From: a virus
Strand: one strand, 5' to 3'
IMG/VR virus record: IMGVR_UViG_3300000101_000007
Span: 29,648-56,354 of that record
Length of the DNA: 26,707 nt
In this document: piece after piece, positions 78 to 22,114 of the stretch
How the letters are laid out: every line of letters begins with the position of its first letter
Numbering within the stretch: position 1 is the stretch's first letter
Position numbers and translations under genes: made by a program
The notes under the pieces: generated by a model
Told to the model about the DNA's origin: nothing
The model's input: the letters and a program-made list of their open reading frames with translations, nothing else
Database searches by the model: none

Positions 78-1136
78 ATGCAAATATCGACAAATAATCA
101 TTGGGATCCTTTAGAAGAAATTATAGTTGGAATAGCCGATCATGCTCGTGTACCTACAGTAGATGTAAGCACAATGAACATGAGTTATACCAATTATAAC
201 ATTGAAGACATTAAGCCATTAGAAGGTGCATACCCAAACTGGTTAATCGATGAAGCTAATGAAGACCTACAAGGTGTTGCAGATGCACTTACTAGTTTAG
301 GTGTTAAAGTACATAGACCTAAAGCACTTGATCATAGTGTAAAGTACAGCACACCAGAATGGGAAACAACAGGTTGGTATACATGGTGTCCTAGAGACTT
401 ATTGTTACCACTAAACAATTTAATGATTGAAACACCTAGTGCATGTCGCTCACGTTTATTTGAAACTAGAGCATATCATGACATTTACTTAGAAGCCGTA
501 CGTGATGGTGTTGAGTGGATTGCTGCTCCTAAACCTATACTACCAGATGAAACATTTCAGTTTGAGGATATAGACGGCAAGCCAAGTTTACGTAATCTAG
601 AACCTATCTTTGATGCACCAAACTGTGTACGTTTAGGTAAAGACATACTATTTCAAATTAGTAATACTGGTAACCATTTAGGTATGCAGTGGTTAAAGAA
701 TACACTAGAACCTAGAGGATATAGAATACATGCTGCTGAACACGTTTATAGTTTTGCACACATGGATAGCACTATTGTTCCACTAGCACCTGGGAAAGTA
801 CTACTAAACAGTACAAGAGTAACCGCAGAAAACTGTCCTAAAGTATTTGATAAATGGGATAAGATTTATTTTGAAGATGTAAATGTTAATCCGTCAACAG
901 ATTCAGGACCAGGTAGTATTAGTCCTTGTAGTCCTTATATTGGCATGAACATACTAAGTGTAGATCCAACTACAGTTATTGTGGGAGATGATCAAACTAA
1001 TTTAATTCGTGTATTAGAAAAACAAAAATTTACTGTAGTTCCTGTAAAGATGCGTCATGCACAAACACTTAGTGGTGGCCTTCATTGTACTACTTTAGAT
1101 TTGCGTAGACGAGGAGAGCTAGAGGACTACACATGA
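78..1136 (+). CDS. Amidinotransferase (glycine/inosamine amidinotransferase family)
   Basis: This is a 352-residue member of the pentein-fold amidinotransferases, which move an amidino group from arginine to an amine acceptor such as glycine. Three hallmarks of arginine:glycine amidinotransferase are visible: PIFDAPNCVR with the catalytic Asp179, FAHMDST with catalytic His228 and Asp230, and GGLHCTTLDLRRRG with the nucleophile Cys337. The segment PRDLLLPLNNLMIETPSACR matches the substrate-loop region of the family. The open frame runs back to 24 (GTG), but ATG 78 is preferred: it follows the previous stop by 8 nt and puts the family N-terminus (HWDPLEEIIVG) at residue 8. Its stop overlaps the next start (ATGA at 1133), so the two are probably co-translated. 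The acceptor amine is unknown; modification of a surface or small metabolite is inference. Confidence 0.9.
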   Translation: MQISTNNHWDPLEEIIVGIADHARVPTVDVSTMNMSYTNYNIEDIKPLEGAYPNWLIDEANEDLQGVADALTSLGVKVHRPKALDHSVKYSTPEWETTGWYTWCPRDLLLPLNNLMIETPSACRSRLFETRAYHDIYLEAVRDGVEWIAAPKPILPDETFQFEDIDGKPSLRNLEPIFDAPNCVRLGKDILFQISNTGNHLGMQWLKNTLEPRGYRIHAAEHVYSFAHMDSTIVPLAPGKVLLNSTRVTAENCPKVFDKWDKIYFEDVNVNPSTDSGPGSISPCSPYIGMNILSVDPTTVIVGDDQTNLIRVLEKQKFTVVPVKMRHAQTLSGGLHCTTLDLRRRGELEDYT

Positions 1137-2578
1137 TAACCCGTGACATTATTAGTAATAATTTTAAAGGTATAAACCTACGCGGTACTAAGGAGCCTTT
1201 TACAAAATCACAATTAGTAGACAATATAGACTTATGGAAATATGTTTTATGTGAGCAGTGTAAAGCAAAGCATGGAGAATCTATTCTTATAGGATTGCAA
1301 AGATTAGACTTAGATTACATAGCTGCAATTTTTGCTGCTTCTGAACTAGGGTTAAAAATTGTAATAGTGGACTACAATAGGAAAGATGACTTTACTGATT
1401 TAGAATACTTTGATGCTAAAACAAAAATATTATCTCCTATAGATATTTTCTTACATGATCTTCTACCTGAATGGTTTGACGAATCTCAGAAGGCATTTGC
1501 TAAGTTTAACTTCTTTTCAACTTGCGCTCGTAGAACATATGTTACATCAAGAGATTTAAATTTTGAGATTACTGACAAAGAAGCGTTTAACAAAATTAAA
1601 GAAATACGTCCAGCACCTACAGATATCTTAATGAGATGTACAAGTAGTGGTACTACTGGAACGCCTAAAATTGTTGAACACACGCATGAATTTTTATACA
1701 AGGTTTCACAACGTAATGCAGATAAATTTTCATCAGGTAACTGTTTACATATTAGAAACTTAAATCATGGAAGTAGTGTAGCAGTGTATCTATTCCCTGC
1801 ATTGATTAGTAACGGTATCACTTCGCACCTGTTTTACGACCTTGATGAAAACGAACCATTTGATAATTTTATTGATGAGATCAAAGAATACAGTGATACT
1901 TTAAGTTTTGTTAACTTTCCGTATCCGTTTATGATTGATGTGTTTATTACAACTAGTTTAGCAAAGAACATTTCATGGCCAACCCTAAGTGTACAAACAC
2001 TGTCGTACATACAAGACTCTGCTAAAGATGCAATCAAAGATCAAATTTTTAAATCTATTACAAGTATCTTTGGTAGTAACGAAACAAGTGGTCCTGTATT
2101 TGAATGTACTATAACTAAAGACACTACTGAACAAAGTTCTTCATGCTTTACTAAGTTAGACAATTTTTACAATATATCTTTAGATAAAGAAGGTTTAATA
2201 CATGTAGGGATGCCAGTATATAATAATACTATAGTAACCAACGACATATTCAAACTAGAAGATAACTTGTATACACATTGCGGAAGAAAAGACATTGTTA
2301 AAATTAACGGAGAGATAATAGATTACGCAGATATTAACAAGTTTAATAGTAAGTTTTTAGATACCTACTTAGTTATAGATAGTGTTACTAACAGCATCTA
2401 TCTTGCATCTTGGAGTAAACTTAATGTTGAAGCATACAATGAGATTACAGCATTTTTTGATAATAACTATAAAAATGTAGTAATAAATAAGTTAGCAACA
2501 TTAAGTAAACAAAAGTTTCTATCAGGCATAAAGGTAGATAACGAATTGATAAGGGAATATTTTAGAAATCATGTTTAA
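1133..2578 (+). CDS. ANL-superfamily adenylate-forming enzyme (AMP-binding)
   Basis: A 481-residue enzyme of the acyl-CoA synthetase/NRPS adenylation superfamily, which activates a carboxylate as an acyl-adenylate. The phosphate-binding loop TSSGTTGTPK is at residues 170-179, the A5-like motif FGSNETSG surrounds residue 314, and the A8 hinge appears as GRKDIVKINGEIIDYADIN. The last residues (GIKVDNELIREYF) resemble the A10 region, whose Lys completes catalysis. It is at the short end of the family, mainly in the N-terminal lobe. It starts inside the stop of the amidinotransferase gene (ATGA), which suggests that the two act in sequence, perhaps activating a carboxylate and carrying a guanidino group. 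The acid substrate cannot be read from sequence, and no carrier protein is seen nearby. Confidence 0.85.
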   Translation: MITRDIISNNFKGINLRGTKEPFTKSQLVDNIDLWKYVLCEQCKAKHGESILIGLQRLDLDYIAAIFAASELGLKIVIVDYNRKDDFTDLEYFDAKTKILSPIDIFLHDLLPEWFDESQKAFAKFNFFSTCARRTYVTSRDLNFEITDKEAFNKIKEIRPAPTDILMRCTSSGTTGTPKIVEHTHEFLYKVSQRNADKFSSGNCLHIRNLNHGSSVAVYLFPALISNGITSHLFYDLDENEPFDNFIDEIKEYSDTLSFVNFPYPFMIDVFITTSLAKNISWPTLSVQTLSYIQDSAKDAIKDQIFKSITSIFGSNETSGPVFECTITKDTTEQSSSCFTKLDNFYNISLDKEGLIHVGMPVYNNTIVTNDIFKLEDNLYTHCGRKDIVKINGEIIDYADINKFNSKFLDTYLVIDSVTNSIYLASWSKLNVEAYNEITAFFDNNYKNVVINKLATLSKQKFLSGIKVDNELIREYFRNHV

Positions 2579-4868: not shown

Positions 4869-5441
4869 CTAAGTTGTGATTTCAACGTCTGCTGCTATTA
4901 TATATCTATATTTATCACTTTGGGGAGCCGCAGGACGATGCCAATATTCGCTTGGGTATATTAACCATGTATATTGGTCAGGTTTAACAAAGAATTTACC
5001 GTCATTATCGGGTCCGTTAGGAGCGAATTCTGTGCCACATAGGTCTATGTCCTGTACATCGTCAGGTATTTCTAAGTACATAATACCACTCATGCTTTTA
5101 GGCTCTGGTTTGTGTTGATGATGGTGCCAAAGTCTTTTTCTATCTTCTGCACCTTCTTTATTTGTCATAAAACTCCAGGCCTGCATGTTACCTACTTGCA
5201 CTTCACGTCCAAAGTACATAAACACACTAAACAAGAAGCTCATACGATACTTTAACCATAGCGGCTCTGGTCTACTAAAGATGTTTTCCTTTGTTTGATA
5301 CTTAGGACTATTCTCCCAGTAGTTACCACTCTCAATGATATGCTTAACAATAGCAATAGCATTCTGATTATCTTCAGCAGTTATGGTACTGCTAAAGTTA
5401 AACTTTTTAAATATTTCGTTTTGATCTATAACATTATTCAC
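4869..5441 (-). CDS. 2OG-Fe(II) oxygenase-like protein
   Basis: A 190-residue protein. LWHHHQH (His106-His110) supplies the proximal His ligands, SGIMYLEIPDD is the strand that follows them in phage 2OG oxygenases, and WLIYPSEYWHRP contains the distal His168, with Arg179 eleven residues later as the likely 2-oxoglutarate anchor. The same His-x10-Arg spacing is seen in the oxygenases at 7074 and 7685. It starts with GTG inside the upstream stop (GTGA, 5438-5441), so it is translationally coupled to the unknown gene at 5438. The substrate is unknown; in phages such proteins often sit near fibre genes, as here. Confidence 0.75.
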   Translation of the reverse strand: MNNVIDQNEIFKKFNFSSTITAEDNQNAIAIVKHIIESGNYWENSPKYQTKENIFSRPEPLWLKYRMSFLFSVFMYFGREVQVGNMQAWSFMTNKEGAEDRKRLWHHHQHKPEPKSMSGIMYLEIPDDVQDIDLCGTEFAPNGPDNDGKFFVKPDQYTWLIYPSEYWHRPAAPQSDKYRYIIAADVEITT

Positions 5442-6163
5442 TGCGCTATTCTTTTCTTTATCTGTTTTAGGATAAGTGATTTTGTTTTACTATCTTTAAA
5501 TTTCTTATACCTATCTACTAAAGGTATCCACGAGTTCCAAGTTGTTGACGAGGAACATGCAACTGAATAACGTTTAAGTTCTTCATTCATACTAAAACGT
5601 ACAAATTCTATAGGACGATCTGTACCGAAACTAAAGTAGCATAACGGTTCATCTTCTTTAATTGTAAACTTTTTAATTCCTGGATCTAACATGAACTCTA
5701 CATTAACTGCTCTAAACCATTTGCCAATGTCATACTTACCAGGTATCATAGTTGCTATCTTTTGCCATGGTGAATTATTAAACCACGGAGCAGTAAGAGT
5801 ACAATCCAAGCTATCATCATCAGTAAAGAATACATAACGCAACCCATACTCTATCAGTATTTGATCATGCAAGTTAGGTTGTCGAACAACATTGCCAAAC
5901 ACACCTTGAATTTTAGTTGGTGGAATTTTCTGTCCATTGTTATCAAACTCAAATGTTGACGTAAGAGGATTCTTAAACTCTAGTGTATTTTTTGCTAGAT
6001 TTTTAAAGGCAGGACAGTAGAACACACTGTCATGTTTGTCAACGTCTGTTTTTTGTTTGTATGATTTATCAAAAACACTGATTGGATCTGGATACAGCAT
6101 ATTCCAGTCAATCTGATCTACATTATAATCAGGCGCCCAGTATACTTTTAGGGCTTTAGCCAT
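5438..6163 (-). CDS. Conserved-looking protein of unknown function
   Basis: I do not recognise the family. The 241-residue product has no signal peptide or membrane segment, is rich in aromatic residues (YWAPDYNV, APWFNNSPW, LCYFSFG) and ends in a basic helix (DSKTKSLILKQIKKRIAQ). The mix of short beta-like stretches suggests a globular cytoplasmic protein. It abuts the gene on its right without a spacer (stop 6164, start 6163) and overlaps the oxygenase on its left by GTGA. It is therefore part of the 7004-to-4869 transcript; a link with the oxygenase is suggested only by coupling. Confidence 0.7.
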   Translation of the reverse strand: MAKALKVYWAPDYNVDQIDWNMLYPDPISVFDKSYKQKTDVDKHDSVFYCPAFKNLAKNTLEFKNPLTSTFEFDNNGQKIPPTKIQGVFGNVVRQPNLHDQILIEYGLRYVFFTDDDSLDCTLTAPWFNNSPWQKIATMIPGKYDIGKWFRAVNVEFMLDPGIKKFTIKEDEPLCYFSFGTDRPIEFVRFSMNEELKRYSVACSSSTTWNSWIPLVDRYKKFKDSKTKSLILKQIKKRIAQ

Positions 6164-6718
6164 TTATAGAAGTCCTTCTTGACCTAATACTGCAACGTTG
6201 TCGTCTGTAATAGGGATCTCTGTTTTAACCATTAGCTCAAAGATCTCTTCTTCTAGTTGCTGTCTGTTAATTTTTAAGTTTGCCAGCTCTGCCTTTGCTT
6301 GTTTGATTTGATCCAAAGAAACAACACCAGTTGAAACACTGCCTGTTACTTCTTTTAGGTATCCTGCAAGTGCATCAGGATCTGTAAGCGGAACTGCTTT
6401 TGCAATTTGTTCTACCTGTGCTAATCTATTATCAACAAACCCAATCTTTGCTTGTGCTGTAGTAATACCGCTACCTGCATTTGCTTGAGCAATTAGTGCC
6501 GCAATATTGTAATAGATAGTTAATAGTTTGTTCCTACGCTCGTCAGTTTTAAACAATAACTCGTTTGAGTCTTGTAAAGTTTTTACGATATCGTCACTAG
6601 TATTAACTTCTTTTGAAAACTCAAGAGTAATTGCATCAATATAACGCTTAATATTATTCTGTAAGTGTGTTGCTTTGCGGATGTTCATTTGCATCTGCTC
6701 GGTTGTTTTCTCTTCCAT
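6164..6718 (-). CDS. Coiled-coil protein of unknown function
   Basis: A 184-residue, mostly helical protein with heptad-like stretches at residues 10-75 (NNIKRYIDAITLEF, DERRNKLLTIYYNIAALIAQ) and at about 137-165 (DQIKQAKAELANLKINRQQL). No family is recognised. The start at 6718 is well supported by AGGAGG nine bases upstream, although this puts the first 65 nt inside the omega-like gene in another frame. The overlap and shared transcript suggest coordinated expression with omega. It could be a structural or adaptor protein; no function can be assigned. Confidence 0.75.
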   Translation of the reverse strand: MEEKTTEQMQMNIRKATHLQNNIKRYIDAITLEFSKEVNTSDDIVKTLQDSNELLFKTDERRNKLLTIYYNIAALIAQANAGSGITTAQAKIGFVDNRLAQVEQIAKAVPLTDPDALAGYLKEVTGSVSTGVVSLDQIKQAKAELANLKINRQQLEEEIFELMVKTEIPITDDNVAVLGQEGLL

Positions 6719-7004
6719 ATTGCTCTTCCTCCTCTTGGAATCGTTTTGCCATTAATTCATCTTCAGCACTTTTAATTTTACCGTTATAATGATCTTCGGT
6801 ATAAAGTCCTAGTGCGATTTCCTTAATTGCTATTGTTGTTGTCTTTTGCCCTTTCTGATATTCAACTAAAGGTGCGGATCCTTGTTGTATTTCTCTTGCT
6901 CTTTTACTTGCCATTAAAACTAGCAAGTGTTGTGAATTTACTATATCGTGTGCCTGCTGGTGGTATCCGTATGCTTCTATTTGTTTATCATCAAGATCAG
7001 CCAT
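6654..7004 (-). CDS. rpoZ-like: RNA polymerase omega subunit-like protein
   Basis: A 116-residue protein matching the bacterial omega subunit pattern. LLVLMASKRAREIQQG (residues 27-42) corresponds to the conserved omega helix with RAR, SAPLV follows, and KTTTIAIKEIALGL (54-67) corresponds to the omega motif T-x-IA-x-[KR]-EI-x-x-GL. Omega helps fold and hold beta-prime in the core enzyme. The C-terminal 45 residues (EEEEQYGRENNRADANE) are acidic and polar, longer than usual. It has its own sigma70 promoter (7041-7069) and an AGGAT ribosome site, so it is likely made early by host polymerase. A phage omega could replace host omega or act as an anti-factor; this is inference. Confidence 0.75.
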   Translation of the reverse strand: MADLDDKQIEAYGYHQQAHDIVNSQHLLVLMASKRAREIQQGSAPLVEYQKGQKTTTIAIKEIALGLYTEDHYNGKIKSAEDELMAKRFQEEEEQYGRENNRADANEHPQSNTLTE

Positions 7005-7040: not shown

Positions 7041-7069
7041 AGTATAACATATACCAATCTGGAAGTCAA
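7041..7069 (-). promoter_or_regulatory. Sigma70-type promoter for the omega-like operon
   Basis: On the minus strand TTGACT, a 17-base spacer and TATACT, with an extended -10 (ATATGT just before the hexamer). The -10 lies 37 bases from the ATG at 7004. Nothing comparable to a late promoter is seen here, pointing to early, host-sigma transcription. Confidence 0.75.
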
Positions 7070-7073
7070 CACC

Positions 7074-7685
7074 TTATTTTGCTATAAGTTTTACATCCCA
7101 TGCCAAAATAGTTCTACTTCCTTGGCCTTTCCACGGATAAACTGTGTGTGGAATATAACTTGGAAATAAAATCATTTTCAAAGGTTCTGGCTTAAAACGC
7201 CATTGATCAGTAAAAACAAAATGAGCAGGGTTTCTAATTACTGGCAATCTAAACTCAATATTAGCATCACTGCTTTTTGAGCCTTCGTCCAATAATGGAA
7301 CGTCCATGTATATGTTCCCACTAATGTGTGCTTCGTGATTATGTAATGATTGGTAATCTCCTGATGTTTGCTTAATAGTCCATGCTGATACTAGCACAGG
7401 TTTGTAGCCATACAGGTCACCAACTCCACTTGTCTTAATAACGTTGTCAATGTATGCTTGACATCTTTCTTCAATGTATTGAGATAAGAAAGAAGTATCA
7501 AGTTTAAATTCATTAGGGACAACTTGTACTTGTTGTCCGCCCCTAATACTAATATCAGGATTTCCTTCATCGTTGTGTTCGCTATGTTCGTGAGCAGTGT
7601 TTACTATTTCACGTAACTTACTATATTGTTCAGCAGTAACGTCATCTACTGCCATCACCGTTGGATTAAAATATGCAAATTTCAT
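7074..7685 (-). CDS. 2OG-Fe(II) oxygenase-like protein
   Basis: A 203-residue protein of the phage 2OG-Fe(II) oxygenase type. LHNHEAHISGNIYMDVP supplies His115 and His117, FPSYIPHTVYPW supplies the distal His180, and Arg191 eleven residues on is the likely cosubstrate anchor. SAWTIKQTSGDYQ is the strand that precedes the first ligands in this family. Its ATG shares one base with the stop of the oxygenase on its right (TAATG at 7685), so the two are made together and may be a functional pair. Sequence identity between them is low outside the metal motifs, so a recent duplication is unlikely. The substrate is unknown. Confidence 0.8.
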   Translation of the reverse strand: MKFAYFNPTVMAVDDVTAEQYSKLREIVNTAHEHSEHNDEGNPDISIRGGQQVQVVPNEFKLDTSFLSQYIEERCQAYIDNVIKTSGVGDLYGYKPVLVSAWTIKQTSGDYQSLHNHEAHISGNIYMDVPLLDEGSKSSDANIEFRLPVIRNPAHFVFTDQWRFKPEPLKMILFPSYIPHTVYPWKGQGSRTILAWDVKLIAK

Positions 7686-8284
7686 TATACTTCTAACCTC
7701 ATTAGTTTATTTTGACACAAGTTACCTCTTACAAAGGTATTAAAACTTAACGAGATGCGAGGCTCATCACCATCGTATGGTTGTACCAAGTGTTCTACAC
7801 TTGATGGAAAGATAAGCATTGTACCAACTGCTGGCTCTACGGTCCAACTTCTACTATTCCAAAGATTTCCTTCTGTAACATCAAATTCAAGTGTATCATA
7901 CTGGCTTGTAATAAAACTAGTATTGCCACCTTTGCCAGTTTCTCCTGACAAGTATACAATTGCCGAAAGTGTTGAGTTAGGATGCCAATGCCTGTGATGT
8001 GTTTGACCTTTATTAGTTTTGTTAAACCAAGATTCTGTAATATAAATTTCTGTATCTTCTGCTACTTTCATTACTCCGTGAAAGTAATCATTAATACCTT
8101 TCATACATTCTTTTCTAAGTTTAGTAAAGTTAGATTCATCAAGTACATTCTGACTGGTACTAATCTCGTTTTGATAGTTTTGCGCCCATTCAATCTTGCT
8201 TAAATCTGTGCCTTCTAAATCTACTTGAGTGCGTACAATTGTTTTAGCAAACAGTGGATATACTTCTAAGTTCTCGTTGTTCAT
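7685..8284 (-). CDS. 2OG-Fe(II) oxygenase-like protein
   Basis: A 199-residue oxygenase. Metal and cosubstrate residues are visible in HHRHWHPNSTLSAIVYLSGE (His99, His101), GTMLIFPSSVEHLVQPYDG (His165) and RISLSFN (Arg176). The spacing matches the putative 2OG-Fe(II) oxygenase family widespread in marine phages. The frame is open up to 8368, but ATG 8284 is chosen because it has AGGAAAAGC just upstream and does not overlap the small gene ending at 8292; the extra upstream residues look unlike the family. It is coupled to the next oxygenase by TAATG. Possible targets are proteins, nucleotides or surface glycans; none is indicated. Confidence 0.85.
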   Translation of the reverse strand: MNNENLEVYPLFAKTIVRTQVDLEGTDLSKIEWAQNYQNEISTSQNVLDESNFTKLRKECMKGINDYFHGVMKVAEDTEIYITESWFNKTNKGQTHHRHWHPNSTLSAIVYLSGETGKGGNTSFITSQYDTLEFDVTEGNLWNSRSWTVEPAVGTMLIFPSSVEHLVQPYDGDEPRISLSFNTFVRGNLCQNKLMRLEV

Positions 8285-8291
8285 GCTTTTC

Positions 8292-8480
8292 CTAAGTTGA
8301 TAAAGAGTTAATAGGTTTACACTGGTACTGTATTGTTTCCCAATCTCCATCAGGTGGAATAGTTTCAAATATGTTTAGCATTTTAAAACACTCCTCTTCA
8401 GTTTCAAACCATTGTACGTCTTGTTCAATACAACTTGAACCTAAACATACTGTTAATAATATATGCCAGATAATTTCCAT
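8292..8480 (-). CDS. Small secreted two-cysteine protein
   Basis: A 62-residue protein with a hydrophobic start (MEIIWHILLTVCLGSSC) that looks like a signal peptide or anchor, followed by a short polar domain. The pattern W-F-x-T-E-E-E-C-F-x-M-L ... Q-Y-Q-C-K-P contains two cysteines about 24 residues apart that could form a disulfide in the periplasm. Two more proteins in this window (10360-10551 and 16276-16494) have the same plan. AGGAT lies seven bases before the ATG. Function unknown. Confidence 0.7.
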   Translation of the reverse strand: MEIIWHILLTVCLGSSCIEQDVQWFETEEECFKMLNIFETIPPDGDWETIQYQCKPINSLST

Positions 8481-8495: not shown

Positions 8496-8571
8496 TGGTG
8501 GAGCCAGAGGGAATCGAACCCACGACCTCCTGAATGCAAATCAGGCGCTCTCCCAACTGAGCTATGGCCCC
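8496..8571 (-). tRNA. tRNA-Ala (anticodon UGC)
   Basis: The minus strand folds as a full cloverleaf: acceptor GGGGCCA pairs with TGGCTCC, the D-arm contains GCTCAGTTGGGAGAGC, the anticodon loop TTTGCAT sits between CCTGA and TCAGG, and the T-arm has GTGGGTTCGATTCC. The 3' CCA is encoded (8496-8498). The first base overlaps the last base of the stop codon of the gene on its right. UGC reads A-ending and, with wobble, most Ala codons, useful to an AT-rich phage. Confidence 0.97.
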
Positions 8572-8977: not shown

Positions 8978-9053
8978 TGGTGCTGGATGTCGGATTCGAA
9001 CTGACCACCTGCTGATTACAAATCAGCTGCTCTACCAAATGAGCTAATCCAGC
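8978..9053 (-). tRNA. tRNA-Thr (anticodon UGU)
   Basis: Minus-strand cloverleaf: acceptor GCTGGAT pairs with ATCCAGC, D-arm TAGCTCATTTGGTAGAGCA, anticodon loop TTTGTAA between GCTGA and TCAGC, T-arm GGTCAGTTCGAATCC. The 3' CCA is encoded (8978-8980). It lies 7 nt after the kdsB-like stop and 29 nt before the next start, apparently co-transcribed with both. Confidence 0.97.
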
Positions 9054-10557: not shown

Positions 10558-11079
10558 CTACTCCTTATTGCCTGCATGATATTCGTCCACTATCTTCATT
10601 GCGTGGTTCCTTAGAGTTTGGTTACCTTTCGTCATTCCGTCAAGTAACAGTTTCTTTTCTTGCATGTATACCTTTGCAAAACTCGGATCGTGTTTCATAA
10701 TACTTTCGGAGTTAGCAATTAGGTCTGCATATTTAATTGTCTGCGCTTGTGCAGACGCACTAACAGAGTGCTCTCTGTCTTTTGCTTTACGGAACGCCCT
10801 GTTGCCATCTTCAGGATCTGAAATATCTGTAAGATCAGATACTAACGATTTTACTACTGACCCAAACTGTTTGTCAATGTCATCTAAGGTAGCTGCCGTA
10901 TCTTCTACGGTATCGTGTAGAACTGCCGCCATTAACATCTCTGTTGTGTGCGGTACAGTCCTTACAATACCCATCACCTCTATAGGGTGTCCAATGTAAG
11001 GAGCACCAGTGTATTTTCTTTTCTGGCCTTTGTGAGCAAGGGTAGCATAAGCAATAGCTTTATCTAAAATCTTGTCCAT
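10558..11079 (-). CDS. HD-domain (p)ppGpp hydrolase-like protein (SpoT/MESH1 type)
   Basis: A 173-residue stand-alone HD phosphohydrolase. The order of motifs is that of the SpoT/MESH1 hydrolase domain: AHKGQKRK (Arg21), APYIGHPIEV (His31), VLHDTVEDT (His55-Asp56, Glu59-Asp60), the FGSVVKSLVSDLTD helix, and IKYADLIAN (Asp119, Asn123). These residues bind Mn and remove the 3'-pyrophosphate of (p)ppGpp in characterised relatives. No synthetase domain is present, so a hydrolase-only role is expected. Its own consensus sigma70 promoter (11107-11135) suggests early expression. Lowering host (p)ppGpp during infection is a plausible purpose; another nucleotide substrate is possible. Confidence 0.85.
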   Translation of the reverse strand: MDKILDKAIAYATLAHKGQKRKYTGAPYIGHPIEVMGIVRTVPHTTEMLMAAVLHDTVEDTAATLDDIDKQFGSVVKSLVSDLTDISDPEDGNRAFRKAKDREHSVSASAQAQTIKYADLIANSESIMKHDPSFAKVYMQEKKLLLDGMTKGNQTLRNHAMKIVDEYHAGNKE

Positions 11080-14195: not shown

Positions 14196-16256
14196 TTATT
14201 TGGTCGTTGCAATGAAAACTCCGTTCCAGTCCTCAGGTAAGTCTTGTGTCATCATATACTCACAACGTTCAATCCACATATTATAGTAGCCTTCCATTTT
14301 ACCATCAAAGTTGCGTTCTATCTTTCTAGCAATCCATATTGCTTCTTCAAACTTTTGTGCTTGATATGCTCTATGCATATCTTCGTGGTAACGTTTTGTT
14401 GTGCGCCATGCTGGCTTAGGATTATCTAGTACTGTCCAAATGCCAATTCCAACTGTTTTACCTTTAACTGCTAAATCGTCTATTTTTAAATAAAAGAAAT
14501 CATCTTTAGTTTGTTGATATGTAGCATCGCCTATTAGTAAGACACATCCGTACTCTTTACATTTACTTTCAATTCTTGCTGCTGTGCTGACTGAGTCTCC
14601 CAGTACATCATACGAATGTCTTTGTGTGCTACCCATTTCTCCAAGATAGCCAAGTCCTGTATTGATGCCTGCTCCCATGCCAACAGGCGGTCTTCCTTCT
14701 GATGTAATTTTATCATTAAACTTCTCCACTGCTTTTAACATATCTAGTCCACATTGTACAGCCGTCTTAGGATGTTGTGGATCATCTATTGGTGCATTGT
14801 GTACATGCATACTTGCATCGCCAATATACTTAATAACCATACCGTCTGCATCAAGTATTGGTTGCGTAATAGCATCCATGTAGCCATTCATAATTTTGGT
14901 TAGTCCTTTTACATCATCTCCAAAGCTCTCTCCTAGAGGTGTAAATCCACGTAAATCTGAGAAGCAAATACTTACTTCTTTTTTCATACCGTCTTTAATC
15001 AGTGCAGGATTTTCTTGTAGCATACGCACTACTGTAGGTGATGCATAACCTGCAAATTGCTTCTTAATCTTTTGTTTTTCAAAGAATTCTACTACAAAAC
15101 GGTTAAATGTAGCATGGAAACCTACTGCTGTGCCTACTAACAGTATCCAGCTCACATCCCATAGCTGTAAGTGCCCCTTAAACAGCGTGTAAGCGCCGTA
15201 CAAGCACGTTGCGTACATAACAAGTACCAATGCACCCACAACGTAATACGGTGCTAAAACCGCCGCAATTATAAGAATAAGCCCAATTGCGATACTAGCA
15301 GCGTACTCTACAAATGTAGCATAATCAAAACGTACAATAGTATCTCCGTTCATAATAGTTTGTAATGCTGTTGCAGCCATTACGTGACTATACTGCTCTC
15401 CGTTTGGAGTAGCAACGATTGGTGCTAGTCCTTCTGCTGTGATTCCTATTATTACAATCTTGCCTTCCATTCCCCAAAAGAAATCATCTTCTGAAGCACT
15501 GTAAACATCAAAATCTTTGTTCCAACGTAACCAAATTCTACCATTTGGATCTGTTGAAATAGTTTCGTATGCAGGCACACGCATAGCAATGATGCCGCCC
15601 TCACCTGCTTTAACTTGATAACTAGGGTCGCCAACAGCAACACGTATAACTTCCATAGGAATACTTGGGTATACTTCGTCTCCAACACGCATTAGCAATG
15701 GTAAACGTCTTACAACACCATCTATCTCAGGTGCAGTATTGATTACACCAACTCCTGCTGCGTTGTTACCTAGTAACGGTATAGGACCTAACATACCTGG
15801 CCATTCAAATAGCCAAGGCATAGGATCACCTATTTTAGCAACACCTCTTGGTACTGCGTTTTTATTTGTTTGTGTTGTTCCTGTTTGTGCAATAACAACA
15901 CCATTATTAAGCAACATCTGTGCTAGTTCTGTATCGCCGCCCAGTCTATCGTTTTCAGAAAACAATATAGGCATAACAATAACACCAGCACCGTGAGCTC
16001 GTAAATTTTTAATAATATCTGCTAGTACATCACGCTTCCAAGGCCATTGTCCGTACTTTTCTATAGATGCTTCATCTATTTCTAGTATAGCAATGTCGCT
16101 GGATAGTGGTTCTACTGTGTCATAACTTTGAATAAGATCAAATGATTTGAGTCTTAAAGTCTCTTTTACATACGGGTCGTTGAAGCCTAGTATACTAATA
16201 ACTGCTAGAGTTAGAAGGGCTGTTGACCAATGTGTTAAGATCTTTGAAAGTTTCAT
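14196..16256 (-). CDS. CHASE2-domain class III adenylyl cyclase
   Basis: A 686-residue membrane receptor cyclase. Residues 11-24 are a membrane helix. About 40-310 form an extracytoplasmic CHASE2 sensor (IAILEIDEASIEKYGQWPW is its start motif). Three helices follow (about 319-338, 341-358, 368-384), then a class III catalytic domain at about 425-610. Metal ligands are Asp434 (CFSDLRGFTP) and Asp480 (KYIGD). Lys476 and Asp550 are the pair that selects ATP, and Arg561 is in VSTAARIE. The Asn normally four residues before that Arg is Ser557, which may lower activity. A helical, TPR-like tail ends the protein. CHASE2 cyclases often sit beside FecR genes in bacteria, and here a FecR gene is 2.5 kb upstream. 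It should make cAMP in the host inner membrane in response to a periplasmic signal. Confidence 0.9.
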   Translation of the reverse strand: MKLSKILTHWSTALLTLAVISILGFNDPYVKETLRLKSFDLIQSYDTVEPLSSDIAILEIDEASIEKYGQWPWKRDVLADIIKNLRAHGAGVIVMPILFSENDRLGGDTELAQMLLNNGVVIAQTGTTQTNKNAVPRGVAKIGDPMPWLFEWPGMLGPIPLLGNNAAGVGVINTAPEIDGVVRRLPLLMRVGDEVYPSIPMEVIRVAVGDPSYQVKAGEGGIIAMRVPAYETISTDPNGRIWLRWNKDFDVYSASEDDFFWGMEGKIVIIGITAEGLAPIVATPNGEQYSHVMAATALQTIMNGDTIVRFDYATFVEYAASIAIGLILIIAAVLAPYYVVGALVLVMYATCLYGAYTLFKGHLQLWDVSWILLVGTAVGFHATFNRFVVEFFEKQKIKKQFAGYASPTVVRMLQENPALIKDGMKKEVSICFSDLRGFTPLGESFGDDVKGLTKIMNGYMDAITQPILDADGMVIKYIGDASMHVHNAPIDDPQHPKTAVQCGLDMLKAVEKFNDKITSEGRPPVGMGAGINTGLGYLGEMGSTQRHSYDVLGDSVSTAARIESKCKEYGCVLLIGDATYQQTKDDFFYLKIDDLAVKGKTVGIGIWTVLDNPKPAWRTTKRYHEDMHRAYQAQKFEEAIWIARKIERNFDGKMEGYYNMWIERCEYMMTQDLPEDWNGVFIATTK

Positions 16257-16261
16257 ATACC

Positions 16262-16269
16262 TATTTATC
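16262..16269 (-). promoter_or_regulatory. Late-promoter-like motif directly before the cyclase ATG
   Basis: GATAAATA ends five bases before ATG 16256 on the minus strand. The same GATAAATA-N5-ATG arrangement occurs at 23620-23627. If active, the mRNA would start at or next to the ATG. Could also be chance in AT-rich DNA. Confidence 0.35.
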
Positions 16270-16275
16270 TTAGGA

Positions 16276-16494
16276 TCAATGATCGTAAACGTAAGGTCCG
16301 TCTTTCATCTTCATAGGTTTGCAGTATGCAGTTATGCGATGTTCTGGAGGTACCATTGAGCTATAGCTGTAATTTCCGTACTGTCGTGGTATACGTTTAG
16401 CATAGTATTGACACACATCTATACTCCTAAAATACATAGGTGATGGCTGCTGTACGTCAGCTATTAATACTACTAGCATAAAAACATGTATCAA
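16276..16494 (-). CDS. Small secreted two-cysteine protein, TTG start
   Basis: A 72-residue protein whose hydrophobic start (MIHVFMLVVLIADVQQPSP) looks like a signal peptide, followed by FRSIDVCQYYAKRIPRQYG and RITAYCKPMKMKDG. The Cys...Cys-K-P layout matches the proteins at 8292 and 10360. The start is TTG 16494, which overlaps the previous stop (TTGA) and has AGGAG nine bases upstream; ATG 16479 is the alternative, with no ribosome site. It lies between the late operon at 17276 and the cyclase, so an exported partner of the CHASE2 sensor is possible but unsupported. Confidence 0.6.
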   Translation of the reverse strand: MIHVFMLVVLIADVQQPSPMYFRSIDVCQYYAKRIPRQYGNYSYSSMVPPEHRITAYCKPMKMKDGPYVYDH

Positions 16495-16793
16495 CGTATT
16501 AATCTCCTGTCGGTATTACGTCCTGGTCTTCTAATAGCGGGTTTCTTTTCTTCCTGAATAGGAGTGGTGGGCGGTTCTTTAGGTTTCTTTGCTTCTGCTC
16601 TAAGTTTAACTACTTCTCTTTGTTCAAGTTGTGCCTTAAACATGTGTATTACTTCAGGTGCTGATTCTGTTGAGCTTAAGAATATGTTTATTGCGCTCCA
16701 TGAATTACCCATGAATAGCAATTTTCCTGCTTTATAAAGTATACCTTTATTGTTATCATTTACAAAAACATAGTCTTTATAAACATACCTCAA
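16491..16793 (-). CDS. Hypothetical protein with basic, proline-rich tail
   Basis: A 100-residue protein. The first half (MRYVYKDYVFVNDNNKGILY, ... GNSWSAINIFLSS) looks like a small beta domain, then comes a charged helix (FKAQLEQREVVKLRAEAKK) and a disordered tail (PKEPPTTPIQEEKKPAIRRP, then GRNTDRRLIR). It directly follows the stop of the gene at 16794 and overlaps the next start by four bases. No family recognised. Confidence 0.6.
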   Translation of the reverse strand: MRYVYKDYVFVNDNNKGILYKAGKLLFMGNSWSAINIFLSSTESAPEVIHMFKAQLEQREVVKLRAEAKKPKEPPTTPIQEEKKPAIRRPGRNTDRRLIR

Positions 16794-17276
16794 CTATATT
16801 ACACCTTTCGCCTTTGCTGTTAATACTATTATAAAAATTAAAAATCCACCAACAGCTAAACATCCACCAGCTATAGCAATACCTTCTACTAACTTACGTC
16901 TACGTTCTTCTTGATCGTAAATTGCTTTTTGTCGTTTCTTTCTAATCTGACCTTCGGTTTGTAAAAGCTCTTCCCATGCACTTGGTCCTCTAGTAAATGA
17001 GATTATATTTTTTAACTCACTTCGCATATCTTCTGCTTTTTTCTTAGCTATAAAAATTTGCATAGCTTCTTCTTCAACTGAGCCTGCTTGAAACAGTTTT
17101 TTAAATAGAGGCGGGTTGCTATTGTACTCTTCTGCTTTTTTAATATCTGAAACAGCACCCATCCAACGACCTAGATCGCCTGCCATGGATTCTATTTCGC
17201 GACCAGCTGCGAAGCCGGCCTTAATCGTGTTAAATGCGCCGGTCGCCATTGCGACGGCTGAGATGGGATCTATCAA
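16794..17276 (-). CDS. Membrane-tailed phage protein of unknown function
   Basis: A 160-residue protein with an N-terminal amphipathic part (DPISAVAMATGAFNTIKAGF), a helical middle (GDLGRWMGAVSDIKKAEEY, PPLFKKLFQAGSVEEEAMQI, SAWEELLQTEGQIRKKRQ) and a C-terminal membrane helix at about 133-153. I recall closely similar proteins in T4-like cyanophages, always of unknown function. The start is TTG 17276 with AGGAG eight bases upstream, and a late-type promoter is at 17306-17313. A late membrane role is suggested by its promoter and topology. Confidence 0.75.
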   Translation of the reverse strand: MIDPISAVAMATGAFNTIKAGFAAGREIESMAGDLGRWMGAVSDIKKAEEYNSNPPLFKKLFQAGSVEEEAMQIFIAKKKAEDMRSELKNIISFTRGPSAWEELLQTEGQIRKKRQKAIYDQEERRRKLVEGIAIAGGCLAVGGFLIFIIVLTAKAKGVI

Positions 17277-17305
17277 AGTGTTCGCTCCTTTGTTCTATTC
17301 ACCAG

Positions 17306-17313
17306 TATTTATG
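17306..17313 (-). promoter_or_regulatory. T4-type late promoter motif
   Basis: CATAAATA on the minus strand, followed by a 29-base leader with AGGAG before TTG 17276. The eight bases are identical to those in front of the fibre gene (4835-4842). It lies just after the big curlin stop, so the genes from 17276 leftward can be transcribed apart from the curli cassette. Confidence 0.6.
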
Positions 17314-17320
17314 CGAGATT

Positions 17321-18775
17321 TTAGTTTTGGGTTACTGTGGTTGTGCCGCAACCATTAGCAGTATTACAATATTGTTGTATTGAATATACCTGATTTGTTG
17401 AACTATCTTGTGTAAGGTTAAGTGTTGCACTGTGGCCAGTCATGTTAATACTTGCATTATGATTGCCTGTGCCGTCTTGTGTTATAGCAACTGTTTGATC
17501 ACTACCAACAGCAATTTCTGCATAGTGCGAACCTGCACCTTGTTGATATAAGTCTATATCGTTGTCGTCACCTTGTACACTTAGAAATGCTTTCTTATCT
17601 CCGTCATTGAGTTGACTTGTTAAAACATTATTGTTACTACCATCTATGTCAACACCAACATAATGCCCGTTTGTGCCTACTCCGTCATTATGTTTTTGTG
17701 TAACATTAAATGTATTGCCGTTACCAACAATGTCAAACTCTAATCTATTATCGTCAGCACCCGCTGAACCACCTTGATCAATTACAGTAGTATTTGAATG
17801 TCCTACCATATCAAACAATATAACATTGTCGTCACCTCTTTGAGTCATTGTGTTGTTATTGTTGTTTCCTGTAATATCAGCATTTACTATGTTGCTAGTT
17901 GTTGAGCCTACACCTGCTATAAGATTATCTTCACCGTCTTGTGTGATGTTAAGTGTATTGTCGTTACCAACTTGACTGATATAAATTCCACTACCTGTTA
18001 CTGCTCTTGATGTTGCTACCTGTGTAGTCTGTGCGTTGCTTATACTTGAAGTGTATGTTGATGTTGTATACAATCCTTCTTCTACCATTATTGATAACAA
18101 CATATCATCCATGTTACTTGCATATGAGCGAGTTGTAAGAAACTGTCCGTAACCAAATGTTACATAAACTGCACCACCATTTGAACCATAATCCCATTTG
18201 TGCCAAATTGAAATATTATTATTAAGAGATGAGTTGGCAGCAACAGTTGTACCACCAGTCACATTGTACATATATTTGTCTGAACCTGGCAAAGTATTTT
18301 CACTTGCTGTGCTACTTGAAAAGTCGCCTTTTCTTGTTGAATAATAACAATTAGCACATCCGCCGTTGTTAGGCCCTTGTGTAAAACTACCTACACTCAT
18401 CTTACTTTCGATCAGTGCTTCTATACTGCTATTTCTGTTGGTTGCGCCGTTAGATCCTACTATAAGTAATTTGCCGCCAGCTGATACATAATTGTCATAG
18501 TTTGTTTTACAAGTACTACCACAGTTTGACTCACCTGTTATGTCAATCACAAGATCTTTACCTGATATATCAGATGAACTAACTGACCCACTTGTGCTAC
18601 TTGATACAGTATAACCTAAATCTTCAAGTTGGCTTTTTAAATTTGCGTATTGAGAACTTGTTTCAGCATTCCCACTATTTTTATAATATATAAACGCTGT
18701 GTCAGCCCATGCTGGCGTTGTGACTGATATTAAAAAGAGGAATAATAAACTATTTCTGAATGATGTCAATATCAT
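17321..18775 (-). CDS. Large chimeric curlin-repeat protein
   Basis: A 484-residue exported protein. Residues 1-24 are a Sec signal peptide ending in PAWA. Residues 25-250 form a separate domain (AFIYYKNSGN, LKSQLEDLGYTV, DLVIDITGES, GGKLLIVGSNG) with the alternating strand-helix look of a Rossmann/GATase-like fold and four cysteines (CGSTC, CANC). From about 262 to the end are curlin-type repeats: IYISQVGNDNTLNITQDGED, NNTMTQRGDDN, NTFNVTQKHNDG, IDLYQQGAG, VAITQDGTGN, LNLTQDSSTN, TTTVTQN. Curlins are amyloid subunits with N/Q-x5-Q-type strands exported through CsgG. The start overlaps the FecR gene by 26 nt, with AGGAG nine bases before. It may be an amyloid-anchored effector or nucleator; the N-terminal fold is a tentative reading. 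Confidence 0.8.
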   Translation of the reverse strand: MILTSFRNSLLFLFLISVTTPAWADTAFIYYKNSGNAETSSQYANLKSQLEDLGYTVSSSTSGSVSSSDISGKDLVIDITGESNCGSTCKTNYDNYVSAGGKLLIVGSNGATNRNSSIEALIESKMSVGSFTQGPNNGGCANCYYSTRKGDFSSSTASENTLPGSDKYMYNVTGGTTVAANSSLNNNISIWHKWDYGSNGGAVYVTFGYGQFLTTRSYASNMDDMLLSIMVEEGLYTTSTYTSSISNAQTTQVATSRAVTGSGIYISQVGNDNTLNITQDGEDNLIAGVGSTTSNIVNADITGNNNNNTMTQRGDDNVILFDMVGHSNTTVIDQGGSAGADDNRLEFDIVGNGNTFNVTQKHNDGVGTNGHYVGVDIDGSNNNVLTSQLNDGDKKAFLSVQGDDNDIDLYQQGAGSHYAEIAVGSDQTVAITQDGTGNHNASINMTGHSATLNLTQDSSTNQVYSIQQYCNTANGCGTTTVTQN

Positions 18776-19886
18776 TACTACCGTCTCCTAGTTTATAATC
18801 TCTAAATTCAAAATCTGATTGTTGTAAATTAATGTTATATCCATTCTGTTGATCTAGTACTAGTTCTACATTCATACCTGTACCACTATCTCGTCTAAAT
18901 ACCCAATTAGGATTTTGATTATACAGTTCGATGCCTGTAACAGGATCTTTACCATATTTCTGTTTTGCTTTTGATTTAGATAATTGACCACTTAGTAAAG
19001 TTGATAACATCTGATTAAGTTGATCAAGTACGTTAACAAGGAAGTTTTGATCTAAGTAGTTTGCATCTAACTCTGTCTGCCAAACATCTTTTGATTCCTC
19101 ATCAAGTTGGTTTATATCTAATCCGTCGTACTCTAAGAAGTCAAACCCTAAGAAGTCTGCTAAGTCTTTAGCACGGTCTTTTTCTAACTGATACTCAACT
19201 TCTTTAGGCTTTCGAATGATTAACAAGTTATCAATAAGCGATTCGTTAATATCAAGTATAATAGGTTTTAAAGGATCTCTTTCTGGTACGTCTACAACAG
19301 TTGCTTGGAATGCTTTGTTTAATATAACTGATCCGGCATCTGAGCTTACTTCAATTTCTCCTACAACACAGATACGCTTAACACCAACAGCAGAACAACT
19401 TGGTAAAAGAATAATAGTTGAACTACCTGTTTCGTCAACGGTCATAGTAAAGTCAGTACCACGAACTCCGATAGTAGCAGTCGGAGTAGTAATCTTTATA
19501 TCTTGTCTACTGTTCTTTGCTATCTGTCCTGATGCATATCTAATAGTTCCAAAAGATGCTTTGAGGGAAAGTTTACCTTTTGAAGTATTAGGATCATATA
19601 CAAACTCGTCAATAACTAATTTACTATTTTGAGTTACGTCAACTCTAGTTTCATCTACAAACTCTATAGCAGTTTTACCTTGACCTGTACGAACGGTATC
19701 ATAACTTACTATTGAACTTCCTGTTTCTGAATCTAGTTTATCACCTGTTGATCTTTCAATTATAGTGTTACCAACCTGCTGAGTTACTTTTCCGATATCT
19801 GCTTGTGCAGCCATAACGGAATTGTTAATGGTTAGCATAACCATTAGACCTGCTACAAGAGCCAATCTGTCCAGCAATCGGATCAT
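18750..19886 (-). CDS. FecR-domain exported protein with curlin-like C-terminus
   Basis: A 378-residue protein with a signal peptide (residues 1-28, ending AAQA) and a FecR domain at about 45-200: YDTVRTGQGKTAIEFVDETR, SKLVIDEFVYD, LKASFGTIRYASGQIAK and the signature TPTATIGVRGTDFTM. FecR domains act in the periplasm as ligand or signal-sensing modules. The middle (200-330) is charged and helical. The last residues contain YNINLQQSDF and SNDIDIIQK, like curlin strands, so it might join the amyloid. It sits between two curlin genes, with a 5-nt gap on one side and a 26-nt overlap on the other. It has no helix to contact an inner-membrane anti-sigma system. The nearby CHASE2 cyclase is the likely signalling partner. 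Confidence 0.85.
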   Translation of the reverse strand: MIRLLDRLALVAGLMVMLTINNSVMAAQADIGKVTQQVGNTIIERSTGDKLDSETGSSIVSYDTVRTGQGKTAIEFVDETRVDVTQNSKLVIDEFVYDPNTSKGKLSLKASFGTIRYASGQIAKNSRQDIKITTPTATIGVRGTDFTMTVDETGSSTIILLPSCSAVGVKRICVVGEIEVSSDAGSVILNKAFQATVVDVPERDPLKPIILDINESLIDNLLIIRKPKEVEYQLEKDRAKDLADFLGFDFLEYDGLDINQLDEESKDVWQTELDANYLDQNFLVNVLDQLNQMLSTLLSGQLSKSKAKQKYGKDPVTGIELYNQNPNWVFRRDSGTGMNVELVLDQQNGYNINLQQSDFEFRDYKLGDGSNDIDIIQK

Positions 19887-19891
19887 GTAAA

Positions 19892-20656
19892 TTAATCCGT
19901 CTGTGTAATATCTATAGTTGCGTCATTACCTACTGTGGTAAGATTTATAACTTTGTCTTCAACACCTGACTGATTGATGTTCACAATAGAACCACCACCT
20001 TTCATATCAACTACCATACTGTGACCATTAACATCACCGCCACCAGATTGTGTAATTGCAACTGTGTTAGCAACACCGCTTTCAACTGATGAGCTTGATG
20101 ATGTAGTACCGCCAGCGCCAACACCTGATAGTGCTGTTGAGCCATCATTACCCATGTCAAAGTTTAAATCAGCGTTTGCTGCATTAAGAGTAAAAGTTAG
20201 TGTGTCTTGATTACCATTATTATCTAGATCAATTGTACCCACAAAGTTCTGTGCATCTGCTGATCCGCCAATTGTTGCTGTAATATCAAATTGGCTACCA
20301 ACAGCATCTATACTTAATGATACAGTTTCACAGTTTACACCGTTTGTATCACAATCTAAATCAACTGTGTTAGTGTTACCAGTTAAGTTGATGTTACCAG
20401 TATAGGTGTTACCATTAATGGTAGTTTCAACAATGTTGGCGTCTCCTGTTTGAACAATTGAAAACGTCATGTTGTTTCCGGTTAAAGCCACACCAGTTGT
20501 TGATGTACCTATTATGTTATTAGTTCCGTCTTGTGTTATGTCCAAGTCTAAGTCATTACCAGATTGCTGTATGTATATGTCATTAGCAAACACTGGAGAT
20601 ATCAACCCCAAACTTAAAACAAAAAGACTACTTGCTACTATTGTCTTTATCTTCAT
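19892..20656 (-). CDS. Curlin-repeat protein (CsgA/CsgB-like)
   Basis: A 254-residue exported protein with a clear signal peptide (MKIKTIVASSLFVLSLGLIS, then PVFA before NDIY). The mature start, NDIYIQQSGNDLDLDITQDG, is a typical double curlin repeat. More repeat-like strands follow: FSIVQTGDAN, INLTGNTNTVDL, VAITQSGGGD, VNINQSGVED, IDITQTD. The middle (100-185), with only two Cys and many Gly, Ser and Asp, is longer than in CsgA (about 150 residues in E. coli), so it is not a simple orthologue. The gene starts inside csgG (28-nt overlap, GGAGCG before the ATG). It is the expected export substrate of the adjacent CsgG. Confidence 0.85.
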   Translation of the reverse strand: MKIKTIVASSLFVLSLGLISPVFANDIYIQQSGNDLDLDITQDGTNNIIGTSTTGVALTGNNMTFSIVQTGDANIVETTINGNTYTGNINLTGNTNTVDLDCDTNGVNCETVSLSIDAVGSQFDITATIGGSADAQNFVGTIDLDNNGNQDTLTFTLNAANADLNFDMGNDGSTALSGVGAGGTTSSSSSVESGVANTVAITQSGGGDVNGHSMVVDMKGGGSIVNINQSGVEDKVINLTTVGNDATIDITQTD

Positions 20657-21659
20657 CTTCGCTCCCTTGGTCGTCTATTTCGTCAACCAATTTTTTAATT
20701 AATGGATCGTTATGCCAACACATATTATCTGCGTCACAATAGTAACTCTTTACACCTGGATACTGTTTGTTAAACTCTTCCTCTGACATTTTAACTATAG
20801 CATCATGTCTTTCGTGTATTGTCGGACGCGACTCCGGTATCAACATACTCTCTAGTTCTTCCCTCTCGAACTTCCACAGTTTCTCTTTCTCACCTTTCTT
20901 TATCAACTCAACTACGGCTGCTTCAATTGCTGTACGAACTGCATAGTTGGTTGGCTCATTTACTGCTGCGCCTACTTCTATTTCAAGTGCCTTTGTGCCT
21001 ACATCTAGGAAACGAAATACATCGCCTCCGCTACTGTAACTTGCAATTTTCTTTTCAGTTGCTACAGTTAGGAGTACTTCTCCTGTCTGTGTACTAATAA
21101 GTCTCATTGCAACAGTAACTTGATCTGTTCTATAAGAAGTTGAACTGCCAATGCCAAAATATCTAGCACCTACACCTCCACTTTCCATATTAGAATCGTA
21201 GCCTACTACGCCACCTTCTAATATTAGACCTGCAAAGAGAAGTGGTTTTAAAGATGTAGGATCATTTTCGTAAACATCTCTAGTTGATCTTATCAATTGT
21301 CTCTCTTTAACTAGATTGTCTAATCCTACACGTTCAATAACTGTAAACCACGTTCCTCCACCGACTTCTTTTAAGGCATTAATAACCCATACCTCAGCAC
21401 CTTGAGTAACCGCACTACTGAGCTGACTAAAATTGTCATTAGGCTTTCGCTGCCCTGTTTTGTCTAGAAAACTGTAAATTGCAATTGTTATTTTTGGTCC
21501 ATCAATAGCTGGCACGGTCTCCAATACACTTTGGTATGGACTTTCCGCCCTAACGGGTGGGGTCCAATCCTTCTTTGTAAAGGTGGCCGCACATCCTGTC
21601 ATTGCTATAGCCAGGACCACAAATAACAAACTTCTAAATAGTCTTTTCAATTCTGTCAT
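20628..21659 (-). CDS. csgG: CsgG, outer-membrane curli secretion channel lipoprotein
   Basis: A 343-residue protein with strong similarity to CsgG, the nine-subunit pore that exports curlins. The lipobox AMTGC places lipidated Cys23. Family motifs follow: ITIAIYSFLDKTGQRKP, WFTVIERVGLDNLVKERQLI, ILEGGVVGYDSNMESGGVGA then RYFGIG, and TGEVLLTV. The pore constriction of E. coli CsgG uses Tyr, Asn and Phe. Here Asn76 and Phe77 are kept, but the loop is two residues shorter and lacks the Tyr. A tail of about 65 residues beyond the E. coli end includes PGVKSYYCDADNMCW and an acidic end. The ATG shares one base with the csgF stop (TAATG). Confidence 0.95.
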   Translation of the reverse strand: MTELKRLFRSLLFVVLAIAMTGCAATFTKKDWTPPVRAESPYQSVLETVPAIDGPKITIAIYSFLDKTGQRKPNDNFSQLSSAVTQGAEVWVINALKEVGGGTWFTVIERVGLDNLVKERQLIRSTRDVYENDPTSLKPLLFAGLILEGGVVGYDSNMESGGVGARYFGIGSSTSYRTDQVTVAMRLISTQTGEVLLTVATEKKIASYSSGGDVFRFLDVGTKALEIEVGAAVNEPTNYAVRTAIEAAVVELIKKGEKEKLWKFEREELESMLIPESRPTIHERHDAIVKMSEEEFNKQYPGVKSYYCDADNMCWHNDPLIKKLVDEIDDQGSEDEDKDNSSK

Positions 21660-22114
21660 TAAAATCCAAAACCTGTCAAAGGCACAGTAATCGTAGTAAC
21701 AGTTCCGTCTTCTTCGGTAATCGTGATGCTAATAGTATCTGTAGTAATATCTTTTACCCAGTATATTATAGCGCCTTCGATTTCAGCTGTTCCGCTATTG
21801 GCTCCTGTATCATCGAACATACCGTCAACTAATTGCTTTGATAATTGTGCATAGATTCTACTCTCAACGTTGTTAAGAAACTTCGCTAAGTTTGTAGACT
21901 CTGCTTCACGCTTTTCTTTCGCAGCTTTGGCTTCAGCCTTCTCCTCAATATCTTTTTTACGAGTAAACTGTAATTGTTCAATACTCAAGACATGGCTGGA
22001 ATACCCTTTACCACTGAAAGATGGATTTTTAAACTGAAAAACTTCATCACCCGCAACGGCAGGTGCTGTAGCTAATAAGCCCAGAATGATAGCTATAGAA
22101 ATTACATTTTTCAT
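21659..22114 (-). CDS. csgF: CsgF, curli assembly factor
   Basis: A 151-residue exported protein. The signal peptide ends at AVA (residue 21). The mature N-terminus GDEVFQFKNPSFSGKG matches that of CsgF, the segment that plugs into the CsgG pore and forms its second constriction. A charged helix (about 52-74, KKDIEEKAEAKAAKEKREAE) replaces the region of E. coli CsgF that is rich in Asn and Ser, and the C-terminus (ITITEEDGTVTTITVPLTG) is the usual beta end. First gene of the curli operon, with AAGGAG before the ATG and a late-type motif at 22146-22153. In the family it holds the nucleator at the cell surface. Confidence 0.92.
   Translation of the reverse strand: MKNVISIAIILGLLATAPAVAGDEVFQFKNPSFSGKGYSSHVLSIEQLQFTRKKDIEEKAEAKAAKEKREAESTNLAKFLNNVESRIYAQLSKQLVDGMFDDTGANSGTAEIEGAIIYWVKDITTDTISITITEEDGTVTTITVPLTGFGF

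Follow-up and report, generated by a model that had tools for sequence, protein, structure and literature searches.

Phages add sigma factors, inhibitors and clamps to the host RNA polymerase, or bring whole polymerases of their own. The locus described here raises the question of why a phage would encode an omega subunit, and which polymerase such an omega would be meant for. It lies within a 26,707-nucleotide stretch of DNA (hereafter "the window"; positions 29,648 to 56,354 of the 107,186-base virus record IMGVR_UViG_3300000101_000007, G000), and the features needed to follow the argument, given in window coordinates, are:

4869..5441, minus strand: 190-aa 2OG-Fe(II)-oxygenase-like protein
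5438..6163, minus strand: 241-aa protein after the partner gene, phrog_17480, function unknown, syntenic in contigs L002, L014 and L015
6164..6718, minus strand: conserved partner gene, 184 aa as annotated, recognized by homology and adjacency, overlapping omega by 35–65 nt
6654..7004, minus strand: phage omega (RpoZ/Rpb6 homologue), 116 aa, recognized by profile, fold and dN/dS
7041..7069, minus strand: sigma70-type extended -10 promoter TTGACT-N17-TATACT, 37 nt upstream of the omega ATG
7074..8368, minus strand: two 2OG-Fe(II) oxygenases (203 and 227 aa), directly upstream of omega
10558..11079, minus strand: SpoT/Mesh1-like small alarmone hydrolase (HD_4), PF13328 at 58.1 bits against a cut-off of 27.2

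The omega gene and its promoter

The initial annotation had placed an RNA polymerase omega-like protein at 6654–7004 and left its strand unstated; the coordinates were right, and the frame is open on the minus strand from the ATG at 7004 to the stop at 6654. Its product is near-certainly a true omega/Rpb6 homologue, as the profile search against RpoZ gave above-cut-off matches to both PF01192 (RNA_pol_Rpb6; 42.3 bits, E 7.8e-11, cut-off 26) and the NCBIfam TIGR00690 rpoZ (42.4 bits, cut-off 23.6), solved omega chains match it at E of about 4e-6, and nothing in the Pfam library other than RNA_pol_Rpb6 matched the ORF up to E 1. The RAR helix (LVLMASKRAREI, residues 28–39) and the second omega motif (TTTIAIKEIALGL, residues 55–67), which had both been pointed out from the outset, are present within a layout consisting of a 9-residue N-terminal extension, a core (residues 16–68), a long C-terminal helix and a disordered end. 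The AlphaFold2 model, for which an alignment with 47 viral omegas was used, reaches a pLDDT of 81 (86–96 in the core) and has helices at residues 6–22, 25–40, 55–64 and 70–107, the last of these being a single uninterrupted one that precedes the disordered end. The top 50 matches of this model in a Foldseek search of the PDB are omega chains (probability 0.99–1.00, best E 2e-3) and VIA-align gave a Z of 10.5 over 80 residues (rmsd 3.3), a fold match that confirms more than it discovers, given that an alignment of omegas went into the model; the identification has, nevertheless, survived both the profile and the fold comparison. The "longer acidic tail" remarked upon previously is long indeed, but its acidity is only mild (11 acidic and 6 basic residues among residues 76–116).

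What the window omega shares with bacterial RpoZ (TIGR00690, PF01192) is the core 16–68, the fold, the RAR helix and the IAIKEI helix, whereas it differs in having no MAR start, in the 9-residue extension, in the long C-terminal helix and in showing NSQH instead of N-R-F/Y at the start of the core helix (NR[FY] is found in 112 of 114 bacterial omegas and is conserved there, not strictly defining). It is the most divergent omega seen, scoring 42.9 bits as opposed to 44.2–82.4 bits for those of 147 Pseudomonadota genomes, and this divergence, together with the NSQH replacement, means that its binding to beta' may be weaker or altered. The gene is, at the same time, under purifying selection (dN/dS of 0.14–0.30 in pairs of distinct relatives). 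While gmk and rpoZ are linked in bacteria (PMC9973325), the window omega sits in no gmk/spoT operon, overlapping the partner gene and adjoining the 2OG oxygenases instead; the gmk-rpoZ(-spoT) neighbourhood, MAR and NR[FY] by which a chromosomal rpoZ orthologue would be recognized are all missing from it.

The TTGACT-17-TATACT promoter reported to precede omega was found at 7069..7041 on the minus strand, and it is kept in the relatives L003 and L004, in which the spacer has largely changed and the TTGACT hexamer, the 17-nt spacing, the TG-N and the TATACT/TATAAT hexamer have not, which argues for it being a real element. Omega is, as had been proposed, the first gene after this promoter, although its being first in an operon is less certain, because only 69 bp lie between omega and the end of the preceding gene on that strand and read-through is possible. 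The description of the promoter as "early-type", on the other hand, found no support: the full record holds 23 sigma70 sites with at least 11 of 12 matches, compared to 3–7 in shuffled sequences (an approximately 4-fold enrichment), and near-consensus TTGACA-17-TATAAT sites precede many kinds of genes, often directly. This phage uses host-type promoters widely, and early timing of the omega promoter is thus not established.

Phage context and the viral omega family

Several isolate "phage" records with rpoZ turned out to be bacterial DNA, which makes it necessary to consider that the window might likewise be host DNA wrongly binned as viral. Campylobacter phages A11a and A18a (MG065691, MG065686) hold a bacterial rpoZ, the A11a omega showing not a single difference from that of E. 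coli, and Acinetobacter phage MD-2021a (CAKLQH020000003, CAKLQF020000004) contains a bacterial gmk-rpoZ-spoT operon; all four records are, therefore, probably contaminated or misassembled. For the window such an explanation is already contradicted and can hardly be credited at all: its contig carries phage genes for ribonucleotide reductase, a PAAR/baseplate-hub-lysozyme protein, an exonuclease, a DNA ligase and Mtd-type fibre proteins, the omega neighbourhood is syntenic across four independent contigs (three close relatives from other metagenomes, 90–97% identical, keep the order 2OG oxygenases, omega and partner as far as the contigs reach), and relatives are found on contigs of 270, 349 and 355 kb, which carry T4-type terminases whose nearest isolates are the PA5oct-like Pseudomonas jumbo phages and Sinorhizobium phage Phosso (48–53%). 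The Gp23, Terminase_6N and Terminase_6C profiles gave no match on the 107,186-base record (Gp23 having been run without a positive control), which would make it either a fragment without those genes or one with divergent versions of them.

Between the oxygenases and a cytidylyltransferase gene there are a tRNA-Ala(tgc) (8496–8571) and a tRNA-Thr(tgt) (8978–9053), both on the minus strand. A curli-like cassette, which is very unusual for a phage, occupies 14196–22114 (minus strand; CHASE2-cyclase, two curlin-repeat proteins, FecR, CsgG at 171.7 bits and CsgF), and a ferredoxin-dependent bilin reductase gene adjoins one for heme oxygenase at 23623–24859 (minus strand); ORFs resembling hemC and hemE by eye are seen at about 85.5–87.3 kb of the full record. 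Many ORFs with CxxxCxxC-like radical-SAM starts lie at about 7–29 kb of the record (left of and into the window), and this cluster, which includes an AMP-binding enzyme at window positions 1133–2578, could make a peptide or a small molecule.

Viral omegas of this kind seem to be far from rare, as well over 100 uncultivated viral contigs were found by profile scans to carry a short omega. With narrow queries, the first viral scans went no further than the three close relatives; about 25 more viral contigs, with omegas of 70–81 aa, came from a query alignment that mixed phage and bacterial sequences, and a scan with those viral omegas resulted in 173 confirmed stretches, the best 80 of which were examined, while a 353-kb contig (L348) was reached via the partner gene. 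The viral loci have neither gmk nor full-length spoT as neighbours, i.e., the gmk/rpoZ/spoT setting is absent from them, and their omegas conserve the core, LV(L)xA..RAR and A(IL)(KR)EI included. In a tree of 93 unique viral omegas (92 and that of the window) and 72 Pseudomonadota omegas, all of the viral ones fall on one side of a branch with an SH-aLRT of 98, the same split from Pseudomonadota omegas having been seen, also with an SH-aLRT of 98, in an earlier tree of 62 viral omegas and the window; with 75–84 alignment columns, a viral set chosen by similarity and bacteria from Pseudomonadota only, these trees do not prove a single viral origin.

Among cultivated phages the picture is quite different. 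When 50,697 phage records were queried with three omegas, the matches that were inspected were bacterial DNA only, the others being annotated Salmonella rpoZ or tiny unannotated contigs; MT839270, a 4.4-kb metagenomic "Bacteriophage sp." contig, also matched an omega query (E 2e-5). PHROGs contains no omega family, as neither the window nor a bacterial omega query matched there, and the best viral fold match in BFVD is A0A6J5T227, a 73-aa omega of an uncultured Caudovirales phage that has the same fold and is named in UniProt/BFVD only automatically ("DNA-directed RNA polymerase"). No paper describing a phage-encoded omega was found in the open-access literature searched (subscription journals were not covered); jumbo-phage RNA polymerases lack omega according to a 2026 review (PMC13282480), and omega goes unmentioned in a comparative survey of 224 jumbo phages from 2021 (PMC7824862).

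The partner gene

The gene directly after omega in the window belongs to what is a new conserved protein family, undescribed before (family A7). Its family-conserved part begins at the ATG at 6688 (174 aa), the ATG at 6718 having the better ribosome-binding site (AGGAAG), and it is homologous to the gene directly following omega in 28 other viral lineages (34–44% identity, E 1e-21 to 1e-48), in nearly all of which the ~190-aa partner gene overlaps or touches omega; the window pair thereby conforms to the viral module of a PF01192 protein beside a member of the A7 family. The reverse scan placed the partner in at least 227 viral stretches, and among the best 80 of these, omega was near it in 58, lying 125–690 nt downstream in 26 loci and about 1.4 kb upstream in one, with omega immediately upstream (-19 to +8 nt) in 31 of 76 testable loci. 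The omegas so linked are all on the same strand as the partner and score about 54 bits or more (other ORFs there reaching 6.3 at most), and 20 of 26 partner records contain a PF01192 match. Adjacency in either order over such divergence is strong evidence for a functional link of some kind. In the remaining 22 of the best 80 loci, no omega was found nearby, meaning that the partner is able to work alone. Partner genes with no omega in reach include those of L287, L309, L320, L332, L343 and L354–L357, among others, and other partner genes checked lie directly behind their own TTGACA-17-TATAAT promoter.

The AlphaFold2 model of the partner is all-helical (pLDDT 95.1). Searches of Pfam, PHROG and PDB gave no usable match for the family, and isolate phages gave none at all: its PHROG matches (E above 0.001) are coiled-coil noise, and what Foldseek and VIA matched were generic coiled coils, the best of which (3kdq, Z 10.1, rmsd 7.2) is within the range of unrelated helical models, so that no function can be read from them. 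Oxygenase, metallophosphatase and Mtd-fibre-like ORFs recur around the omega-partner pair in L348, L344 and L302 (as judged by ORF starts), ORFs of 190–192 aa similar to the 2OG-Fe(II)-oxygenase-like protein follow the partner in L348, L289 and L302, and in the 353-kb L348 a protein whose start is similar to that of the 203-aa oxygenase precedes omega. Given the tail-fibre (Mtd_N) and oxygenase genes around it, the partner might be a virion or assembly protein. One could go further and suppose that the omega fold itself has been recruited for another job, e.g., alongside the helical partner in a module for tails or assembly, and is not a polymerase subunit at all; the tail-fibre-like and oxygenase genes near omega in both the window and L344 would fit this, as would the lack of any transcription-related match for the partner in the family and fold comparisons, but the conservation of the omega core in the viral copies argues for a kept beta' interface and the omega gene has a host-type promoter of its own, which renders this supposition improbable.

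A phage omega presumed to act on the host polymerase

Searches of 40 viral omega records for beta' (PF00623) and of 16, the 270–355 kb contigs included, for Sigma70_r2 found neither; the controls were positive for both, and the records may be fragments. With neither beta' nor sigma-70 detected, the target is presumably the host RNA polymerase, and the viral omega, judging from these genomic data, most likely serves it. The host target proposed in the initial annotation, i.e., a viral omega favouring phage transcription through the host polymerase, therefore gains from these searches and from the host-type promoters, unlike the early expression that had been attached to it.

The reading we prefer, at roughly even odds with everything else taken together, is that a phage-specific omega replaces or competes with the host one and marks the host polymerase, the partner acting with it. 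Made from a strong host-type promoter, the phage omega would enter the host alpha2-beta-beta' assembly, taking the position of host omega or competing with it, and so result in a phage-marked polymerase; the helical partner would probably act with omega, either as a co-factor docking on the omega-marked enzyme or by helping to load omega, and in the window lineage ppGpp site 1 of the marked enzyme would also lack its omega half. What we infer here is that the phage omega binds host beta' and displaces host omega, that the partner interacts with the phage omega and that phage transcription is affected. There is precedent for omega mattering to phage-like gene expression, as GafA steers RcGTA expression in Rhodobacter capsulatus through omega (PMC9638019) and E. 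coli RNA polymerase without omega is redistributed in prophages (PMC5811629); in some bacteria, R. capsulatus (PMC9638019) among them, omega is not needed for growth, and the consequences of exchanging it may be small.

A simpler role would be that of a mere chaperone or stabiliser of beta', keeping the polymerase assembled in a dying cell with no regulatory meaning attached. E. coli omega is a chaperone of beta' folding (PMC5811629) and the core fold is kept in the phage protein, but this would explain neither the conserved partner gene nor the separate viral clade nor the loss of MAR, and we regard this role as unlikely.

The MAR of RpoZ is a (p)ppGpp-binding motif (PMC6416229), and the window omega has lost it: E10-A11-Y12-G13-Y14 stand in place of M-A-R-V-T behind the 9-residue extension, and residue 10 of the model aligns with residue 2 of the ppGpp-bound omega in 4jk1. 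With the start codons of viral ORFs assigned by rule, MAR is present in 36 of 93 unique viral omegas as opposed to all 114 bacterial ones, and after clustering at 80% in 25 of 49 versus 62 of 62 (Fisher p 5e-11). The HD_4 hydrolase, 3.6 kb upstream of omega and behind a TTGACA-17-TATTAT promoter of its own, has an intact HD...ED motif (HDTVED in the sequence) and is a predicted hydrolase with relatives in 284 phage records; in two other viral lineages, an HD_4 gene lies on the strand of omega at distances of 2.4 and 4.4 kb, which makes three lineages with the two genes within 5 kb (single-lineage P of 0.075, 0.14 and 0.04). These observations bring forward the leading rival, namely that the main role is an escape from the stringent response, in which host omega would be replaced, ppGpp site 1 would be gone and the SpoT-like hydrolase would destroy ppGpp. 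Half of the viral omegas keep MAR, however, so this cannot be the general role; when residues 2–5 of omega were removed and beta' was changed as well, RNA polymerase lost only about 2-fold in ppGpp binding (PMC7676912), stringent control may depend mainly on site 2 (PMC5811629), and the HD_4 linkage was noticed after the fact, with HD_4 being absent from most omega records. As an account of the main role, escape is thus rather doubtful, even if less easily dismissed than the chaperone.

Returning to the replacement of, or competition with, host omega, the known systems offer only partial parallels. The multisubunit RNA polymerases of the jumbo phages phiKZ and AR9 are also cellular subunit homologues encoded by large phages, but these phages bring beta/beta' without omega, alpha or sigma (PMC13282480), while here omega is encoded and beta' was not detected. 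In RcGTA, phage-like gene expression is likewise steered through omega (PMC9638019), yet there a transcription factor uses host omega, whereas here the phage supplies it. The Rpb6 of giant eukaryotic viruses is a virus-encoded member of the same omega/Rpb6 family, annotated as a subunit of the viral RNA polymerase, in contrast to the present case, in which no viral large subunit was found.

Phage modification of the host RNA polymerase is, of course, already known; the partner family is new, and the swapping of a core subunit by a phage was not described in the open-access literature searched. Taken at its widest, and quite tentatively, uncultivated T4-type phages of a large clade, many of them jumbo-sized, might be re-equipping the host polymerase with an omega of their own and a dedicated helical co-factor, with the omegas of half of the lineages being without the ppGpp site, so that the captured polymerase would be deaf to the stringent alarm. 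A widespread phage omega with an obligate-looking neighbour constitutes a natural handle on the long-standing question of what omega is for, and through it one could see whether ppGpp control is disarmed by phages at the level of the polymerase itself.
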